A stretch of DNA of 64,000 nt from Streptomyces sp. NBC_01716. GTDB lineage: Bacteria > Actinomycetota > Actinomycetes > Streptomycetales > Streptomycetaceae. The notes below the pieces were generated by a model that saw only the letters and a list, made by a program, of their open reading frames with translations, ran no database searches and was not told the DNA's origin. Of this stretch, positions 3,032 through 14,754 are shown one piece after another (the first letter of the stretch is position 1; each line of letters opens with the position of its first letter). The position numbers and the translations under genes were made by a program. The stretch is from positions 6,510,001 to 6,574,000 of the forward strand of contig NZ_CP109181.1 in NCBI RefSeq assembly GCF_036248275.1. Reading direction: 5' to 3'.

Positions 3032-3247
3032 GTGGCACAACCGCGAAAGGGGTACTACCGGGCGGCGCACTACGTGCGGCCGACGAACGTATCCAGCAAG
3101 GTCAAGATGCCGGCGCTCTGGGTGGTTGTTGTCGGCGTTCTCTTGGTGATCGCCGCTTGGAACACTCTCTTCGGCGATGGCGGCGACAAGACGACGCCGG
3201 AGCCTCAGCGCACGGCTCAGTCAGCCACGGAATCGCCGTCCCGTTAG
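3032..3247 (+). CDS. Small single-pass membrane protein
   Basis: This 71-residue protein has a basic N terminus (MAQPRKGYYRAAHYVRP), one membrane helix (ALWVVVVGVLLVIAAW, residues about 28-43) and a short Thr/Ser/Gln-rich tail, probably outside the cell. The GTG at 3032 was chosen because it has a GGGG ribosome site nine bases before it. Its last 27 bases overlap the 3' end of the convergent caspase gene. No family is recognised. Confidence 0.6.
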   Translation: MAQPRKGYYRAAHYVRPTNVSSKVKMPALWVVVVGVLLVIAAWNTLFGDGGDKTTPEPQRTAQSATESPSR

Positions 3248-4378
3248 CTTTCGGAAGGCTTGTCCCCAAGGGAACGTGGTGCGGGTGTTCTGGCTCCGGC
3301 CATGTGGCTCCTCGGATTCAGATCCTCTTGCAACCGGGGGAGTAGATCGAAGCCGTTCCCAGCACAACTGCCAGTCATTCAGCTGCTCGTCAGGCACTCC
3401 GCAGGCGGCTAGATAGACGCCCGTTGTCCGCCATGTCCTGGGCAAATCCTTGCGGTTAAGGAGGTTGCCGACCGTTCCGGGAGCGATCTGCCCGCCGGAG
3501 CGGTGGCTGATCGCCGCATGCGTGAGGGAGCTGGCGATGCGCACCTGCCCCAGTGCGTGGAAGAACCCTTCGACGGTGCGGATGGCTGCAGGGTCTGGCC
3601 ACGTTCGTTGGCCGGCATGCACGTCACTAGGGCTGCTGGACACAGGAGGTCGGCTGAAGGCGGGATTCCAGCCCAGCGCGAGCCGGCCGTTGCTGTTGCG
3701 CTCCCGTCCCTGGGGAACGGGGCGACCCTTTGCCGAAAGTGACCTTCGCAGCTCGCGGAAGACAGAGTCGAGCTCCAGCCGCTCGGGGCCTCCTGAGATA
3801 CCGGAGGTGAGGATGGCGAGCAGCTCGCCGGTGAAAGCGGTGTGGGGTTCCCCGGGTGGGGCGAGCGCCTGACGGTTCTCAGAGGCCGCGGCCAGCAAGT
3901 AGCTCCCTTCGACATCGGCTTGGGCAGCCAACTCCGACAGCCCCATCGTTCCCAGAGCCAGTCCGCCGTAGCAGCAGTCGAGAATGACGACCGTTCGTTC
4001 CGCTCGCCCCTCCAGCAGAGCGCCACGGAGCCATCCGTACGGAATCCCTGTTTCGACCCTTTGCTGTTTGGATTGAGGCAGCCCGAGATAGAGCTCGCCT
4101 TCTGGCGTGACCAGGCCATGCCCCGCGTAGTACACGAGCAGCGTGTCCCTGGCTGCGGCGCTGGCGTCGCGCAGGGAGTCCATGGCCGCTGTCGCGCTGG
4201 GCGGGTTGGAAAGCACGATGCAGTCGTCTCTGCCAAGACTCCAGGATGTGGGCCCCATGAGCACCTCCGCCATGGAGTTGAGGTTGTTGGAGACGGCCGG
4301 TAGATCTTCGAGGAAGTCGTACGTGCTCGTTCCGATCAGCACCGCCCTCGAAGCGCCGGGATCTGGGAACACGCTCAA
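3221..4378 (-). CDS. Caspase-family (C14) protease with C-terminal helix-turn-helix-like domain, EACC1-associated
   Basis: This 385-residue protein starts with a caspase fold. The beta strand RAVLIGTSTY opens it, the catalytic His lies in YYAGHG (His87) and the catalytic Cys in ILDCCYGG (Cys136). After a Ser/Pro linker, residues about 265-345 resemble the XRE-like domain common in actinobacterial conflict proteins (VEGFFHALGQVRIASSLTHAAI, then VGNLLNRKDLPRTW and WQLCWERL). It would act as a cysteine protease effector that kills or arrests the cell when triggered. Its ATG overlaps the stop of the EACC1 gene (ATGA), so the pair is coupled. EACC1-caspase pairs are known from comparative genomics of actinobacterial conflict systems; the trigger and substrates here are unknown. 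Confidence 0.85.
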   Translation of the reverse strand: MSVFPDPGASRAVLIGTSTYDFLEDLPAVSNNLNSMAEVLMGPTSWSLGRDDCIVLSNPPSATAAMDSLRDASAAARDTLLVYYAGHGLVTPEGELYLGLPQSKQQRVETGIPYGWLRGALLEGRAERTVVILDCCYGGLALGTMGLSELAAQADVEGSYLLAAASENRQALAPPGEPHTAFTGELLAILTSGISGGPERLELDSVFRELRRSLSAKGRPVPQGRERNSNGRLALGWNPAFSRPPVSSSPSDVHAGQRTWPDPAAIRTVEGFFHALGQVRIASSLTHAAISHRSGGQIAPGTVGNLLNRKDLPRTWRTTGVYLAACGVPDEQLNDWQLCWERLRSTPPVARGSESEEPHGRSQNTRTTFPWGQAFRKLTGRRFRG

Positions 4379-4740
4379 CCTGCCGAGCCCTCCCCGCCGT
4401 TTCGCCGGCTCTCTTGGAGTAGCCGTGTGATTCGTTCGATCTCCTCGTCACTGCAGTCGGTCAAGGCGTCAACGAGATCCTCGTGGCGGACCGTCACGCG
4501 CGAGGCTCGTGGGCGTGTCTGCTTCCAAGCGGCAAGCGTGAGAGCAAAGTTCGCGGCGCTCCATCCGTTCTCCGTGACCAACTGCAGGATGTCGGAGACT
4601 GCCCCCATCTCGCCCTCGCGCGGCGGTTGCTCGCACATCTCGACGCTGGCAGTACGCCGGATGTCGGGGTCTCGGCGGAGCCAAGTGAGCAGGGAACGGA
4701 GTTCGTCGTCCGCCGGCTCGACACGAACCTCAACGCGCAT
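4375..4740 (-). CDS. EACC1 (effector-associated constant component 1) family protein
   Basis: This 121-residue protein has the EACC1 layout: an N-terminal strand MRVEVRVEPADDELRSLLTWLRRDP, then the hallmark PPREGEMGAVSDILQLV, a helical middle (AANFALTLAAWKQTRP) and a short charged tail. EACC1 proteins are small adaptor-like partners encoded directly upstream of effectors such as caspases, trypsin-like proteases and nucleases in actinobacteria, and are thought to couple sensing to the effector. The gene overlaps the caspase gene by four bases. No NTPase signalling module (STAND or similar) lies beside the pair, so it is a minimal version or the sensor is elsewhere. Confidence 0.75.
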   Translation of the reverse strand: MRVEVRVEPADDELRSLLTWLRRDPDIRRTASVEMCEQPPREGEMGAVSDILQLVTENGWSAANFALTLAAWKQTRPRASRVTVRHEDLVDALTDCSDEEIERITRLLQESRRNGGEGSAG

Positions 4741-9494: not shown

Positions 9495-9597
9495 CCATGA
9501 GCCCACCATCCCGGCAGCCGGTGTGCCGAGCCGATCCGCGGCTTTTTCCAGCGGACCACCAGCCCGGCTCCAGGCTGTGTACCTGAAGGAGGAACCC

Positions 9598-10620
9598 GTG
9601 TTAACTCCACCTGTCTATCCGGACTTTGAGCGCGCGTATCTGGATGTGCTCGGTCATCTGGTGGATCGGTTCGAGTACCGGAACGCACCGCGTGGGAACG
9701 CCGCGCGTGAGCGCGTCGGTCTCAGTTTCCAGATCGCCGATCCGCGTGCGCGTCATCCGTATCTGGCCGAGCGGAAGGTCAATCCTGTCTGGCACTTCGC
9801 CGAGGCGCTCTGGTACCTCGCCGGTCGCAACGATCTGGAGATGCTCGCGTACTACGCGCCGCATGTGCGGCAGTTCTCGCGTGACGGTCGGACGATGGGC
9901 GGCTCCGCGTACGGCTCGCGCATGTTCAACCCGCCCACGGACGACGGCACATCACCGTTCGACCGGGTCCTGGAGCTGCTGCGTACGGAGCAGGACAGCA
10001 AGCGGGGCCTGCTGCCGATTTTCACCGCAGACGAGCTGGCCGTGGCCGACAACCCCGACATGTCCTGCGTGGTCGCCCTGCACCTCCTGGTCCGGGAGGG
10101 CCGACTCCACATGGTCTGCTACATGCGGGCCAACGACTGCGACCGCGGGCTGCTGTCCGACACGTTCTCCTTCACGATGATCCAGGAGTTCGCCGCCGCA
10201 CAGCTCGGGCTCGAACTGGGCACCTACACCCATCACATCGGCTCGGCGCACGTCGGCGAGCGTGATGTCCCGCGCATCGGGCGTGTCCTTGCCGAGGCCG
10301 AACTCCACGCGCCACAGGCGCGGTTCCCGTTCCCGAGGATGCCTGCCGGCACGTCCTTCTCAACCATCTCCGACCTGCTCGTACACGAGGAGAGACTGCG
10401 CAACGGCCGGGGCCGCCTGCAGCCGGAGAAGATCGCGGCGCTCGGCTTCGACCCGTACTGGCAGCAGGTGCTGCTGCTCTTCGAGGTGCACCGGCAGATC
10501 CGCCGCTGCCCGGCGGACCCGGTCGAGGAGAGCGTGCTGGGCGCCCTCGATCCGGGACTTCGCTGGCTGGTGGCCCATCGCTGGCCCAAGAGCATGCCCG
10601 ATATGGGAGCGCGATCGTGA
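9598..10620 (+). CDS. Thymidylate-synthase-fold enzyme, predicted (d)CMP hydroxymethylase-like
   Basis: This 340-residue protein aligns with E. coli ThyA with a constant offset of 11 over the active site. Glu58 matches Glu69, catalytic Cys146 matches Cys157 (DMSC), Arg166 matches Arg177, Asp169 matches Asp180 (MRAND) and His207 matches His218 (GSAHVG). Two specificity residues differ. Asn177, which selects uracil, is Asp188 here, and Tyr209, which contacts the sugar, is Gly220. Asn-to-Asp at this site is the known feature of T4 dCMP hydroxymethylase and is expected to favour cytosine. The start is GTG with AAGGAGGA just before it, and codon 2 is TTA, so translation should need the bldA tRNA. 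The last 100 residues are an extension beyond ThyA. It heads an operon with overlapping genes. A true ThyA role is unlikely. Confidence 0.85.
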   Translation: MLTPPVYPDFERAYLDVLGHLVDRFEYRNAPRGNAARERVGLSFQIADPRARHPYLAERKVNPVWHFAEALWYLAGRNDLEMLAYYAPHVRQFSRDGRTMGGSAYGSRMFNPPTDDGTSPFDRVLELLRTEQDSKRGLLPIFTADELAVADNPDMSCVVALHLLVREGRLHMVCYMRANDCDRGLLSDTFSFTMIQEFAAAQLGLELGTYTHHIGSAHVGERDVPRIGRVLAEAELHAPQARFPFPRMPAGTSFSTISDLLVHEERLRNGRGRLQPEKIAALGFDPYWQQVLLLFEVHRQIRRCPADPVEESVLGALDPGLRWLVAHRWPKSMPDMGARS

Positions 10621-11228
10621 CGATGCCCGGTAAGCCGTCCTGGAGCGGCGGTGTGGTCGACGGCGTCGACTGGGACCGGTGGACGGTGATCCTCTGCAAG
10701 CCGGACTGCGCCGAGACCGGCCTCACCGACCGGGTCCTTGAGCGGATCGCCGCCTGCGGTGTCGCCGTCCTCGGCCGGCTCGACCTTACGGCGAGGGCGT
10801 GGCAGGCCCACGTGCACTACTGGGACCTGCTGGTGGACGCCGACTGGTTCACCGACCGGGACATTCCCACCGCGCTCGATGCCCTGTACGCCGACAAGCC
10901 GGTGACCGTCGCCCTCGCCCACGGTGATGCCGGTATCCACGGCAGAGTGCGGGACCTGCTCGGTCACTTCGACCCCACGCAGGCCGCCAAGGGCACCATC
11001 CGCGGGGACCTCGGCCGCGACAGCCTGGAAGAGGCGCTCGTCGGCGGCCGGCTGGTGAACAACCTCGTGCACACCTCGGACGACCCCGACGCCGCGCGCC
11101 GGGACTTCGGCACCTGGTACGGCGCCCGCCGCCGCAGGCTGCTCACCCCACCCCCGCAACACCCACCGCACCAACGTGCGGCAGCCGAGCACCCGCTCCG
11201 GCACACCCCCGACTGGAGATCCGCATGA
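10617..11228 (+). CDS. Nucleoside diphosphate kinase homologue
   Basis: This 203-residue protein matches nucleoside diphosphate kinase. The first strand and phosphate-binding lysine appear as WTVILCKPDCAE. KGTIRGDLG carries the conserved Arg. LVHTSDDPDAARRDFGTWYG corresponds to the catalytic-His motif (HGSDSxxxAxxEI), with His retained. It should therefore be able to move phosphate from NTPs to nucleoside diphosphates. It is longer than housekeeping NDK (about 137 residues), with a 15-residue N-terminal lead, small insertions and a Pro/His/Arg-rich tail. The GTG start overlaps the stop of the ThyA-like gene. In this context it probably makes the triphosphate of the modified nucleotide; this role is inferred. 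Confidence 0.82.
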   Translation: MTMPGKPSWSGGVVDGVDWDRWTVILCKPDCAETGLTDRVLERIAACGVAVLGRLDLTARAWQAHVHYWDLLVDADWFTDRDIPTALDALYADKPVTVALAHGDAGIHGRVRDLLGHFDPTQAAKGTIRGDLGRDSLEEALVGGRLVNNLVHTSDDPDAARRDFGTWYGARRRRLLTPPPQHPPHQRAAAEHPLRHTPDWRSA

Positions 11229-12403
11229 ACACACCCGTCGCCCCGTTACGCCGTGCCCTGCCCATCCTGTTCTCGGACCAGATCGGCGGGCTCAAGCCGG
11301 AACTCGCCGACGTGATCGAGTACCGCAAGTCGGGGCTGTCGCTGAACTGGATCGTCGGCTGCTCGCTGGAGTGCGGATACTGCGTCCGGCATCTTTTCGA
11401 CAACTTCGAGATGAAGGCCCCCCGCCGCCTCATGAGCGACGAGGAGGCCGTCACCCGCCTCGTCGGGCACCCGTACTTCCGGGCGCACAAGACGCCCGTC
11501 CAGCTCCTGAACCGGGCTACGGACCCCATGCTCCCCATCGTCAAACCGCACGTGTTCAACGTGCTGCGGGCCCTGGATGAGCGGGGCCTGACCAACCACG
11601 TACTGATCATCACGCGATGGCGGGTGACGCCCGAGGACTGCGCCGTCCTCAACAGCTTCACCCACCCGCGCCTGACCGTGCTCGTCACGCACTCCAACAT
11701 CGCCGACCCGGCGATCGAGCCCGTTGACTCGACCATCGCCGCACGCAGCCTGCGCACCTTGTACGAGCACGCCGAGCGCTACCGCACCGTCCTGTACTGG
11801 CGTCCGATCGTGCCCGGCCTCAACAATTCCGCCGCCGACATCGAACGGGCACGGGAACTGTCCCGGCACGCGCACGCGACCGTCTTCACCGGCCTGTTCT
11901 TCCGCGATCAGATCGCCTCCTACTACCAGGCACACGGCCTGCCGATCCCCTACGACGAGACAGCCCGGCGGAAGATCATGCCCGAAGTCTCCGAGCAGCG
12001 GATCCTCGACGCCTTCCAACAGGACGGCACGTGGGGGGCGTTGTTCCGCAAGACGAGCTGCGGGGTGGCGTACGTCCACGGAGAGGCCGACTACAACGGC
12101 CACTTCGGCATCCGGGAACTGTGCGACATCTGCCCCGAGACCCAGATCGCGCGGTGCCAGGCGGCCTGGGTCAAGCCGGATCCGGCCACCGTCACGGCCG
12201 AAGCCCAAGCACTAGGCGCGACGGGCGCGGTGGAGGTCAACGACCGTGCCATCGTCGTGGAGGGACTGGACGAGCCGCCGCGCTACTACCTCCAGCACGG
12301 CTTCGGCTACCAGTGCCACGACCGCACCAAACCCCATCACCACCGCCGGCACGGCCGGGCCCCCATCGGCTGGACGGCGGAGAACGGACCCACCCCCGCA
12401 TGA
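11225..12403 (+). CDS. Radical SAM protein
   Basis: This 392-residue protein has the radical SAM iron-sulfur motif CSLECGYC (Cys46, Cys50, Cys53; CX3CX2C) after a strand NWIVG. The barrel follows (VQLLNRATDPMLP, HVLIITRWRVTPED, VLVTHSNI). A second cysteine group near residues 280-310 (KTSCGVAYV, then ELCDICPETQIARC) could hold an auxiliary cluster. The N terminus and spacing recall spore-photoproduct-lyase-like and other nucleic-acid-acting members, but I cannot assign a reaction. It overlaps both neighbours by four bases (ATGA at each end), so it is a stoichiometric member of the operon. It may modify a nucleotide, DNA or RNA base, or repair one. Confidence 0.85.
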   Translation: MNTPVAPLRRALPILFSDQIGGLKPELADVIEYRKSGLSLNWIVGCSLECGYCVRHLFDNFEMKAPRRLMSDEEAVTRLVGHPYFRAHKTPVQLLNRATDPMLPIVKPHVFNVLRALDERGLTNHVLIITRWRVTPEDCAVLNSFTHPRLTVLVTHSNIADPAIEPVDSTIAARSLRTLYEHAERYRTVLYWRPIVPGLNNSAADIERARELSRHAHATVFTGLFFRDQIASYYQAHGLPIPYDETARRKIMPEVSEQRILDAFQQDGTWGALFRKTSCGVAYVHGEADYNGHFGIRELCDICPETQIARCQAAWVKPDPATVTAEAQALGATGAVEVNDRAIVVEGLDEPPRYYLQHGFGYQCHDRTKPHHHRRHGRAPIGWTAENGPTPA

Positions 12404-13002
12404 ACTTCTCCTCCTGGCCCCCGCTCCTCGTGGTCGACGTCGAAGGCAACGGCGCCAACCTGCCCGACCTCGTCGAAGTCGCCGCACTCCCCGTACGCCA
12501 AGGCAGCCCGGACACCAGCACGGCCGGGGCGTGGCTGACCAAACCCCGGCACCCCGTGACCCCGTTCGCCACACGCGTCCACGGCCTGAGCAACGAGCGC
12601 CTGGATACCGAGCCGGTCTGGGAGGAGATCGCCGACCAGGTCGGCACGCTGCTGGGCACCTCGTGGATCTGCGCCCACAACGCGCACGTCGACCACCGGG
12701 TGCTCTCCGCACACCTCCCGGCATGGCGGCCGGCCGGAGTCCTCGACACCCTCCGCCTGGCCAAGGCCACCTACCCCGGCCTGCCCAAGTACTCGCTCGA
12801 TGCCCTGATCGAAGACCTCCGGCCGGACCTGACCGCAGCCCCCGCACATCGCCACCGCGCCACCTACGACGCCTACGCCACCGCCCAGCTCCTGATCCTC
12901 ATGGCCGACCGGTACGACACCTGGGACCAGCTCGTCGCCGCGGCCGTGCCGCCCGGCCTGCCCGGAGCCCCCGAACCAGACAAGGACCCCACCCTGTGGT
13001 GA
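12400..13002 (+). CDS. DEDDh-family 3'-5' exonuclease (DnaQ-like)
   Basis: This 200-residue protein carries the four acidic positions of DnaQ-type exonucleases: VVDVEGNG (Asp13, Glu15), CAHNAHVDHRVL (second Asp) and HRATYDAYATAQLL (His-x4-Asp, the DEDDh form). Such enzymes trim single-stranded DNA or RNA from the 3' end or hydrolyse oligonucleotides, using two metal ions. Nothing suggests a polymerase attachment. The ATG overlaps the radical SAM stop, and its own stop overlaps the next gene. Possible roles in the operon are removal of unwanted nucleotides from nucleic acid or recycling; both are inference. Confidence 0.85.
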   Translation: MNFSSWPPLLVVDVEGNGANLPDLVEVAALPVRQGSPDTSTAGAWLTKPRHPVTPFATRVHGLSNERLDTEPVWEEIADQVGTLLGTSWICAHNAHVDHRVLSAHLPAWRPAGVLDTLRLAKATYPGLPKYSLDALIEDLRPDLTAAPAHRHRATYDAYATAQLLILMADRYDTWDQLVAAAVPPGLPGAPEPDKDPTLW

Positions 13003-13607
13003 CCAACCCTCAGCCCATCCGCATCGGCGTCATGGGCACCCACTCCACCGGCAAGACCACACTCCTCAAGCGCATCGAGATGGAACTACGCGCCCATGGA
13101 ATCCCCGTTGCCCGCACCGGCCGGCTCGGAAAACGAGCCGCACTCGCCGGCCTCCCGAAGATGCAGCACCACACCGCCACCTCCACCGAATGGATCATCA
13201 CCCAAGGCATCGCCGACGAAATCGCCGCAACCGCCCACCCCGCCCCCGAACCAATCCAAGTCCTCCTCGCCGACCGCGCACCCTTCGACGCCCTCGCCTA
13301 CTTCCACGCCGCCCAGCAATGGCGACACGAAACCCCCGACCCCCTGGAGCAAGAACGACTACGCCTCCTCGCCTCCACCCAGACCCCGAAATACCACCTG
13401 CTCCTTGCCACAGTCCTCGACCCGGCACAACCGGTCGAGAACAAGCACGACTACGACGCCCACTACCGCGCGCTGGTCGACCACCACACGCACACGCTCC
13501 TCGCCGAAGACAAGATCCCGCACCAGCGCATCACCAGCGACCCCAACAGCCAGGCACACGCCATCGAACTGGCACTCCAACTCTGCCTCAACCAGGCCAC
13601 GCCATAA
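12999..13607 (+). CDS. P-loop kinase/AAA-type ATPase (nucleotide kinase candidate)
   Basis: This 202-residue protein begins with a strand and Walker A loop, IRIGVMGTHSTGKTTLLKRIE (P-loop residues 13-20). A later acidic strand, QVLLADRAPFDALAYF, resembles the DR motif of the AAA_28 group, which includes NadR-type nucleoside kinases. It is the size of a nucleoside or nucleotide kinase. The GTG at 12999 overlaps the exonuclease stop; a GTG one codon earlier is the alternative. As last gene of the operon it could phosphorylate the product of the ThyA-like enzyme before the NDK acts. This order parallels the hydroxymethylcytosine pathway of T4 phage, but no experiment supports it here. Confidence 0.8.
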   Translation: MTNPQPIRIGVMGTHSTGKTTLLKRIEMELRAHGIPVARTGRLGKRAALAGLPKMQHHTATSTEWIITQGIADEIAATAHPAPEPIQVLLADRAPFDALAYFHAAQQWRHETPDPLEQERLRLLASTQTPKYHLLLATVLDPAQPVENKHDYDAHYRALVDHHTHTLLAEDKIPHQRITSDPNSQAHAIELALQLCLNQATP

Positions 13608-13715: not shown

Positions 13716-14354
13716 CTATGTCTCGTACTTCTCCGTCGCGGCCCGAGCCGACTTCGCGTTGGAAGTTGCGTTGAGACGGGCTACCTGCGCGCGTTGCGAG
13801 ACTTCGCCCCCGAAAGAGGACCATCCGAAGAGAGAAGCGAGCAGTTCGGCTGCAACAGCCGCTGCTGTTGTCAGCGCTGCCATCACCCCGCACATGGACG
13901 CGGGGGGCCTAGCAACCCATCGGCCTCGGCTTCTTGCAGCCGCGATGGCGCATTGCTCCGACCAGAGCTCAAGAACCTGAGCGAGACGGGCGAAGCAGGC
14001 TGCCGCCGCAGCCAAGCAAATATAGAAGCTAGTGAGCCCTCCGCCGATGCGCGCAGCGATACCAGGAGGCGGTCCTTCGTCGCTCCAAGGCCAACCCATG
14101 ACGGAATAGACGACGGCCAGACCGGCCGAAGCGGCTATCCATGCAGACCCGAGCAGATACTCCAGGCGGCCCTCGTAGTCATCCTCCTCTTCCTTGTCAT
14201 CCTGCTTGGGCTGTTGTTTAGTCGACGCAGGTTCGCCGGACGTCTTTTTTCCTGAGGGCGGAAGAATGATCTGCCAAAAGCCACCGTGGACGTCGCCGCC
14301 CACAAACGTGCCGGAGCCGTGGTTGTGCTGTTCCCGGTGCTCAGCGTCCGCCAT
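13716..14354 (-). CDS. Three-helix membrane protein with N-terminal GTFVGGDVHGG motif
   Basis: This 212-residue protein starts with a short soluble tag, HNHGSGTFVGGDVHGG (residues 10-25). A Lys/Glu/Asp-rich linker and three hydrophobic segments follow (around GSAWIAASAGLAVVYSVMG, SFYICLAAAAACFARLA and CGVMAALTTAAAVAAELLA), then a soluble tail. The tag is nearly identical to the C-terminal end of the protein encoded just upstream (GTGTFIGGDVHGG). Short Gly/His/Val hairpin motifs shared between the C terminus of one protein and the N terminus of its neighbour are the pattern of bacterial amyloid signalling sequences. Its start overlaps the upstream gene by 14 bases. The likely role is a membrane effector or sensor; the family is unknown to me. 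Confidence 0.65.
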   Translation of the reverse strand: MADAEHREQHNHGSGTFVGGDVHGGFWQIILPPSGKKTSGEPASTKQQPKQDDKEEEDDYEGRLEYLLGSAWIAASAGLAVVYSVMGWPWSDEGPPPGIAARIGGGLTSFYICLAAAAACFARLAQVLELWSEQCAIAAARSRGRWVARPPASMCGVMAALTTAAAVAAELLASLFGWSSFGGEVSQRAQVARLNATSNAKSARAATEKYET

Positions 14355-14434
14355 CTGACGCCCCGTCGTAGTTGAATGTCACGCCACCGTGCACGTCACC
14401 ACCGATGAACGTGCCAGTGCCAGTGTTGTGTTGG
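14281..14434 (-). repeat. Repeated DNA encoding the shared GTF-GGDVHGG motif
   Basis: Bases 14281-14330 (start of the membrane gene) and 14384-14434 (end of the upstream gene) are two imperfect direct copies of about 50 bases. Both encode HN-x-G-x-GTF-x-GGDVHGG on the minus strand. Conservation is stronger at protein level than DNA level, which suggests selection on the peptide rather than a recent duplication. Confidence 0.6.
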
Positions 14435-14754
14435 TTCCAGACATTCGAGACCGGCGGGTCAGGCACTGCGAGTTCGTCCACCTCGCTCATGGCGTCGCGG
14501 TGCTCGTCGAGATAGTGAGCGATGAGCTGTACCCAGGCAGTCGCTGCGAGCGCCTGAGCTTCTGGAGAGAGCGAGGTGAGCTGCGCTGCGGTGTCATCCA
14601 CTGCCTGGGCAGCGGCGCGCTGTTGATCCGGGGCCGCCCGGCGGAAGAAACGCGCAACTCTCAAGCGCATCTTCTCGGAGCCCGATGTGGCTATGGCTGC
14701 GACCAGCGTGCCAGCTGCACCAGTGGCCACAGCCATTAATTCGGCGTCGTACAT
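14341..14754 (-). CDS. Small helical protein with C-terminal GTFIGGDVHGG motif
   Basis: This 137-residue protein opens with a hydrophobic Ala/Gly-rich segment (ELMAVATGAAGTLVAAIA, residues 5-22). A basic helix RLRVARFFRR and a helical domain (QQRAAAQAVDDTAAQLTSL, AATAWVQLIAHYLDEH) follow. The C terminus ends in GTGTFIGGDVHGG (residues 112-124). Streptomyces has many small proteins of this layout, with a hydrophobic helix, WRR/FRR-type basic patch, helical body and short Gly-rich tail. The tail is duplicated at the N terminus of the next protein, so the two probably interact through it. The gene is the first transcribed from the right side of the island. Confidence 0.65.
   Translation of the reverse strand: MYDAELMAVATGAAGTLVAAIATSGSEKMRLRVARFFRRAAPDQQRAAAQAVDDTAAQLTSLSPEAQALAATAWVQLIAHYLDEHRDAMSEVDELAVPDPPVSNVWNQHNTGTGTFIGGDVHGGVTFNYDGASDGGR

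Follow-up and report, generated by a model that had tools for sequence, protein, structure and literature searches.

What would a bacterium make with a thymidylate synthase (TS)-fold enzyme, a nucleoside diphosphate kinase (NDK) homologue, a radical S-adenosylmethionine (SAM) protein, a DEDDh 3'-5' exonuclease and a P-loop kinase, all encoded in a single operon? The question is raised by positions 9598-13607 of a 64,000-nucleotide stretch from the 8.67-Mb genome of Streptomyces sp. NBC_01716 (contig NZ_CP109181.1, positions 6,510,001 to 6,574,000; hereafter the window, with positions counted from its first letter). Four consecutive 4-bp stop/start overlaps (GTGA at 10617, ATGA at 11225, ATGA at 12400 and GTGA at 12999) link five + strand open reading frames, all of which stand at the coordinates and on the strand given in an initial annotation of this DNA. 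Its view that the five genes are made as one unit, in a possible modified-nucleotide pathway, holds up as well, the gene set being conserved together in other genomes.

That annotation had left three options for the product, namely a modified nucleotide for DNA or RNA, a nucleotide-based defence or signal, and a nucleoside natural product. Genomic context favours nucleotide-based defence, and we read the operon as one form of a mobile module, associated with defence genes, whose product is a modified nucleotide directed against phages, with a viperin-like mode of action; we give this reading a probability of about one half. That the operon is a nucleotide pathway is likely, a phage-defence role is somewhat easier to believe than to doubt, and the exact chemistry proposed below is tentative.

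A shared core and its company

A radical SAM scan of named genomes gave 36 loci and a plasmid search 40 records. The 48 loci examined together with the window, less three dropped as radical SAM fragments (L064-L066), leave a set of 46 that is partly non-independent (L057 and L058 are 98% identical in radical SAM) and in which L075, L057, L067 and L078 doubled as queries, the divergent L075 qualifying only via its own sequence. These loci come from Actinomycetota, Alpha- and Gammaproteobacteria and Nostoc, the nearest radical SAM relatives of the window being mostly Streptomyces. The exonuclease gene stands 3' of the radical SAM gene in 45 of the 46 (the exception is Nostoc L072), and an AAA_28 kinase gene follows downstream, at a coverage of at least 50%, in 40. 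Genes for TS and NDK lie upstream in 26 loci, the window counted, all of them Streptomyces save one Kitasatospora and one Actinacidiphila, and are not found in the other 20. Three families, radical SAM, exonuclease and kinase, make up the shared core, to which TS and NDK are a lineage-specific add-on. The initial annotation had set the radical SAM protein and the exonuclease aside as out of place in the pathway; with the kinase they are instead what is most widely shared, and the co-occurrence of homologues on which it had staked its proposal is seen in the core families.

Because the same order recurs across phyla and the protein distance matrices correlate (r 0.52-0.91, permutation p ≤0.002, for all loci with both proteins, in a test that leaves shared species history in the correlations), the gene set goes beyond chance. 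For streptomycetes alone the correlation between radical SAM and kinase distances is lower (r 0.33, p 0.049). Further families accompany the core in part of the set: an aldo/keto reductase lies 3' of the kinase in 22/46, a nudix-like protein, assigned by eye and without a Pfam match, is often found there as well (16/46), and an HD protein with dGTPase-like similarity (PADLOC dGTPase, 1.5e-8) occurs in four loci, from Rhizobium, two Sinorhizobium and Labrenzia. The HD protein and the aldo/keto reductase fit nucleotide or redox work. Signs of decay, either a split radical SAM or exonuclease gene or an interrupted or truncated kinase gene, are seen in L055, L041, L063 and L036.

Within the genus the radical SAM gene is present in at least 18 of 199 genomes, six of those 18 holding fragments only; the figure is a lower bound because nine candidates were scored per genome. 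Close TS relatives (>50% identity) occur in 11 of the 199, and nine of these 11 belong to the 18. A phylum-wide search, with four candidates scored per genome and not used as a rate, returned one genome of 396, its own. Several copies reside on plasmids typed as conjugative or mobilizable. A search within 19 kb of glnA in nine relatives yielded no match at >55% identity to the window proteins from left of that gene, and a marker gene that one relative carries at ~6 kb from glnA lies ~63 kb away in this genome. A tRNA-borne insertion site was rejected, the window holding no tRNA.

The association with defence is seen most directly in Pseudomonas (L057), where genes for SIR2 (PADLOC 4e-73) and HerA (9e-161) stand directly upstream of the core and the candidate-defence gene PDC-S65 stands downstream; in L058, with a core 96-98% identical, PDC-S65 and a ThsB (Thoeris) gene lie downstream. 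L106 is a Mu-like phage contig, with genes for terminase, portal, capsid, protease and minor head protein, and here an opposite-strand block between head genes (L106:5012-10236) reads SIR2, HerA, radical SAM, exonuclease and kinase; gene calling placed nothing else within it, and its top PADLOC models for SIR2 and HerA are identical to those of L057. The SIR2-HerA pair, Nezha, is described as a two-gene phage-restricting system, with evidence for NAD+ depletion (PMC11559045). A second HerA contig (L111) was negative for the module genes at the cut-off applied. In L108 and L109 (radical SAM 45-47% identical), a run of TS, NDK, radical SAM and exonuclease genes adjoins prophage endolysin and tail genes, and the neighbourhood of prophage lysis genes is a usual spot for phage cargo.

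Plasmids allowed a controlled comparison. Of the 40 plasmid records 18 are non-Streptomyces, and nine of these were used, the remaining nine (2 Rhizobium, 4 Labrenzia and 3 Roseibium) having been left out as apparent near-copies by genus and identity. Upon comparing each locus with a matched stretch half a plasmid away, defence genes recognized by name, other than toxin-antitoxin genes, are found within 8 kb of five of the nine loci versus none of the nine controls (Fisher one-sided p 0.015), under a naming rule that was fixed after the loci had been viewed. The genes in question are Shedu and ABC-three-component (L067, L069), an N-6 DNA methylase (L070), a CBASS-type DncV/ThiF/patatin set (L071), and an anti-phage dGTPase with TIR (L088). 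Hidden Markov models add a HamB-like helicase adjoining L087 and a DpdJ-like helicase with a methylase in the viral-collection locus L107, the controls having been judged by name only. The count of defence contexts is made up of these nine plasmid loci and single cases.

The enzymes of the putative pathway

Four of the five window proteins have Pfam matches of their own (Thymidylat_synt, 2.4e-18; NDK, 2.7e-14; RNase_T, 6.5e-16; AAA_28, 2.7e-8). For the product of the first gene, the best PDB matches are the MilA structures 5jnh (E 3.3e-81) and 5b6d (5e-81), over the full length, residues 7-331 aligning to MilA 6-326 in the 5jnh match; ordinary thymidylate synthases form a second tier, at E 7e-13. 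In MilA, a hydroxymethylase of cytidine monophosphate (CMP), Lys133 and Ala176 are reported to favour ribose and Asp186 is associated with cytosine, and in an A176S/K133R double mutant the preference flips to deoxy-CMP (dCMP; PMC5175136). The equivalents in gene 1 are K135, A178 and D188, invariant in 30/30 aligned relatives, as are C157, H218 and E69, which include the catalytic Cys and Glu; H218 retains the ribose-binding His216 of MilA. The Lys/Ala/Asp set is not general to the TS-like family, since a more distant streptomycete group (L012-L028, 17 loci, 33-37% identity) carries Arg at the first of the three substrate positions, Gly or Ser at the second and Asp at the third, which suggests dCMP-type enzymes in that group. 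Judged by its residues, gene 1 probably encodes a CMP-type enzyme, acting on the ribonucleotide rather than the deoxynucleotide, with 5-hydroxymethyl-CMP (hmCMP) as its predicted product.

The T4 hydroxymethyl-dCTP pathway employs a TS-fold hydroxymethylase, then a kinase and then NDK; a radical SAM enzyme and an exonuclease are not known to be part of it. The initial annotation had drawn on this pathway, and the order of enzymes is indeed alike. The idea of a modified nucleotide is supported, while the sugar is probably wrong: the sugar-selecting Arg and Ser of T4 dCMP hydroxymethylase and ThyA are replaced in gene 1 by Lys and Ala, as in MilA, and the uracil-binding Asn position of ThyA is Asp in 30/30 gene 1 relatives. 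A T4-like hydroxymethyl-dCTP for DNA was rejected, gene 1 being without the deoxy-selecting residues, as was a host thymidylate synthase, the substrate residues pointing to CMP and the genome carrying ThyX. Elsewhere in the genus, another genome (L086:6978-10453) has a MilA-like gene, 43% identical, beside a nucleoside deoxyribosyltransferase-like gene and a phosphomethylpyrimidine kinase gene, in what looks like a bacimethrin/MilB-type cluster.

The NDK homologue is divergent, and K28 and H152, the latter presumably the active-site His by alignment to NDK, are retained in 52/53 aligned rows; many relatives show two tandem NDK matches, which are fused in L074, and a housekeeping-type NDK is encoded elsewhere in the same genome. 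For the P-loop kinase, the predicted structure (pLDDT 87.3) has the nucleoside/nucleoside monophosphate (NMP) kinase fold, matching the kinase domain of NadR (ribosylnicotinamide kinase) at Z 17.0 and thymidylate kinases at Z 14.8-16.2. A second copy of the core lies at ~7.71 Mb in this genome (L078:8493-10852) and comprises a regulator, radical SAM, exonuclease and a thymidylate-kinase-family protein; it is without TS and NDK, and its exonuclease carries an in-frame stop. The thymidylate-kinase-family protein (PF02223, 6e-31) stands in for the AAA_28 kinase, and because the kinase family is swapped here, phosphorylation of a nucleoside or NMP is suggested as the conserved role, with which the model of the window kinase agrees.

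The exonuclease has the four acids and the His of the DEDDh class, as D13, E15, D98, H152 and D157. Across 42 aligned sequences D13 is kept in 39 (the other three are gaps), E15 in 40, and both H152 and D157 in all; at the third acid position, that of D98, 31 sequences have Asp and 11 have Glu.

Pfam gave no match for the third protein itself. It is called a radical SAM enzyme because of a CxxxCxxC motif (C46, C50 and C53, invariant across 20 aligned relatives), weak PF04055 matches in seven of those 20 relatives (best E 0.0016), a predicted radical SAM barrel with generic radical SAM fold matches (pLDDT 76.8), and the annotation of its plasmid relatives as radical SAM. The same alignment reveals a second conserved set of four Cys, C279, C300, C303 and C311. 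A PDB sequence search gave no radical SAM sequence match, and PADLOC models gave none at E 0.1. None of spore photoproduct lyase, lysine aminomutase and viperin was adopted as its identity, the fold matches lying within ~2.5 Z of one another and sequence matches being absent or weak.

A candidate mechanism and its competitors

In the streptomycete form of the module, the MilA-type enzyme would convert CMP to hmCMP. The simplest order of the steps that follow would have the P-loop kinase make hmCDP and the NDK homologue hmCTP, and the radical SAM enzyme would then modify hmCTP, or another nucleotide, by radical chemistry. The resulting analogue would act as a poison of RNA or DNA synthesis in phages, by analogy with the ddhCTP of viperin, and the DEDDh exonuclease would strip misincorporated analogue from host nucleic acid, and so confer self-immunity. 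An analogy for this last step exists in the coronavirus 3'-5' exonuclease nsp14 ExoN, which is reported to excise the viperin product ddhCMP from RNA (PMC9415739); by this analogy, the exonuclease may protect the host. Core-only lineages would use an unmodified nucleotide as substrate, and lineages that retain radical SAM, exonuclease and kinase exchange the accessories, among them the aldo/keto reductase, the HD protein and the nudix-like protein.

Viperin, whose kinase partner is CMPK2, is the well-known radical SAM maker of an antiviral nucleotide. We tentatively suggest that the present module is a second, independently evolved radical SAM system of this sort, in which a new radical SAM family would make a nucleotide that terminates chains or miscodes, a kinase of its own would activate it, and a dedicated DEDDh exonuclease would give self-immunity; a streptomycete branch would have captured a CMP hydroxymethylase plus NDK, and its product, tagged with 5-hydroxymethylcytosine, would be told apart from CTP. 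If true, the strategy evolved more than once, and the module would show how bacteria guard against their own chain terminator; it would also offer new nucleoside chemistry, that of 5-hydroxymethylcytidine analogues, of relevance to antiviral and antibiotic leads.

How close does this come to systems already described? Prokaryotic viperin, SAND, likewise ties a radical SAM enzyme, paired with a nucleotide kinase, to antiviral defence (PMC9642334). The operon differs in its second four-Cys set, its constant exonuclease partner and, in streptomycetes, its base-modifying enzyme, and neither the sequence nor the fold of its radical SAM protein gave a specific match to viperin. The likeness is therefore one of working only: the system would act like viperin systems, and membership in the viperin family is not implied. 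With MilA and BcmA, of mildiomycin and bacimethrin, gene 1 shares homology over its full length (MilA E 3e-81), together with the Lys/Ala/Asp set for CMP, but the operon is without a MilB glycosidase gene, gene 1 being linked instead to NDK, radical SAM, exonuclease and kinase, and MilA Tyr218 is Gly. In Photorhabdus, thmABC places radical SAM, nucleoside kinase and nucleoside triphosphatase in three adjacent genes, the description of the cluster mentioning no TS, NDK or exonuclease (PMC12691670). Nezha, directly 5' of the core in L057 and L106, is a separate two-gene system as reported (PMC11559045), the five operon genes belonging to other families.

PADLOC 2.0.0, with a library from 2023, contains no system model that combines radical SAM with a kinase; the window kinase has weak P-loop matches only. 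The exonuclease alone matches the CRISPR-associated DEDDh model (2e-26) and PDC-S48 (1e-16), matches that we read as general for DEDDh domains. PDC-M51 was rejected as a known name for the module; only the thymidylate-kinase-type protein of L078 matches M51B, the matches to M51A in this genome are weak and lie far from the module, and no paper was found. A full-text literature search for the gene combination returned no description, within a coverage that mostly leaves out subscription papers and bioRxiv; a phosphorothioate paper (PMC10853773) concerns other systems. The gene set is widespread and seemingly undescribed, and the initial annotation, which knew of no described system with these genes, is borne out in both PADLOC and the full-text literature.

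Several observations weigh against a defensive module with viperin-like chemistry, beyond the retrospective naming rule. To our knowledge, no member of the module has a tested function. The SIR2-HerA pair is separable from the core, because L058 is without it upstream and because the radical SAM records listed, 30 out of 40, include none of the 34 plasmid records that carry a related HerA; one obligate five-gene system including SIR2-HerA was rejected for these reasons and for the negative result in L111. In four of the nine plasmid loci (L068, L072, L073 and L087) no neighbouring gene is named as a defence gene, and under a looser rule two of the controls would count as well, one with an AbiEi antitoxin domain and one with caspase family and VapC genes; one further control stretch holds Fic and RelE genes. 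A tblastn search of 50,697 phage records at E 1e-5 gave no match. In six of the 46 loci (L036, L046, L048, L061, L063 and L078) the AAA_28 kinase is absent or broken, and it was not found in L108 or L109. Finally, viperin is matched by the predicted radical SAM fold at Z 10.5, amid many other radical SAM enzymes at Z 9.5-12.0, so that the fold is no closer to viperin than to these, and the position in gene 1 that corresponds to the ribose-binding Tyr218, Gly in this protein, is variable among relatives.

The main rival, which we hold to be possible but rather unlikely, is a secreted nucleoside antibiotic derived from hmCMP, of the mildiomycin or bacimethrin kind, for which the exonuclease and accessories would provide self-resistance. 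MilA is after all a natural-product enzyme, and the three enzymes of thmABC are reported to yield 4'-thiothymidine (PMC12691670). Five streptomycete loci (L033, L042, L048, L049 and L083) have, 2-4 kb from the radical SAM gene, an ABC transporter (identified by eye) whose membrane and ATPase parts are fused; it could serve to export a product, a further point against defence. A secreted antibiotic is harder to reconcile with the 20 loci whose core stands without TS and NDK, or with a core found near defence genes and in phage cargo; and a MilB-type glycosidase was not noticed adjoining the operon, unlike L086, among neighbour families that mostly carried no annotation.

Distinctly less probable is nucleic-acid modification or repair, in which the radical SAM enzyme would act on RNA or DNA like spore photoproduct lyase or RlmN and the exonuclease would trim the lesion. 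The exonuclease is the most constant partner of all, and both of these enzymes appear among the tied fold matches, but those matches are unspecific, and the proposal leaves the CMP hydroxymethylase, the NDK, the NMP-type kinase and the exchange of kinase families unexplained. A phage-derived counter-defence or genome-modification module, altering the nucleotide pool to shield phage DNA, is improbable: it accords with copies carried by a Mu-like phage or adjoining the lysis genes of prophages, but the first enzyme is ribonucleotide-type by its residues, many loci are plasmid-borne, the phage records gave no match, and the L106 copy travels with SIR2-HerA, a known defence pair.

Layout of the operon and neighbouring genes

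Table 1. Features of the operon, with window coordinates.
Feature	Coordinates	Strand	Basis
Ribosome-binding site AAGGAGG, 5' of operon	9586..9592	+	Read from sequence
TS-like protein, homologue of MilA-type CMP 5-hydroxymethylase	9598..10620	+	GTG start; PF00303; PDB 5jnh/5b6d
Divergent NDK	10617..11228	+	PF00334
Radical SAM enzyme, unnamed family	11225..12403	+	Alignment of 20; weak PF04055 in relatives; model
DEDDh 3'-5' exonuclease	12400..13002	+	PF00929
P-loop kinase, nucleoside/NMP-kinase fold (AAA_28)	12999..13607	+	PF13521; model

The aldo/keto reductase and nudix-like families that often lie 3' of the kinase elsewhere are absent from the 64-kb window. About 5 kb upstream of the operon, on the - strand (3221-4740), an EACC1 gene is followed by a caspase-domain gene, a pair described as a predicted two-gene conflict system (PMC7159879) and counted here as part of the defence context. 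Immediately 3' of the operon, also on the - strand (13716-14754), two overlapping small genes without a Pfam match have in common the motif GTF(V/I)GGDVHGG.

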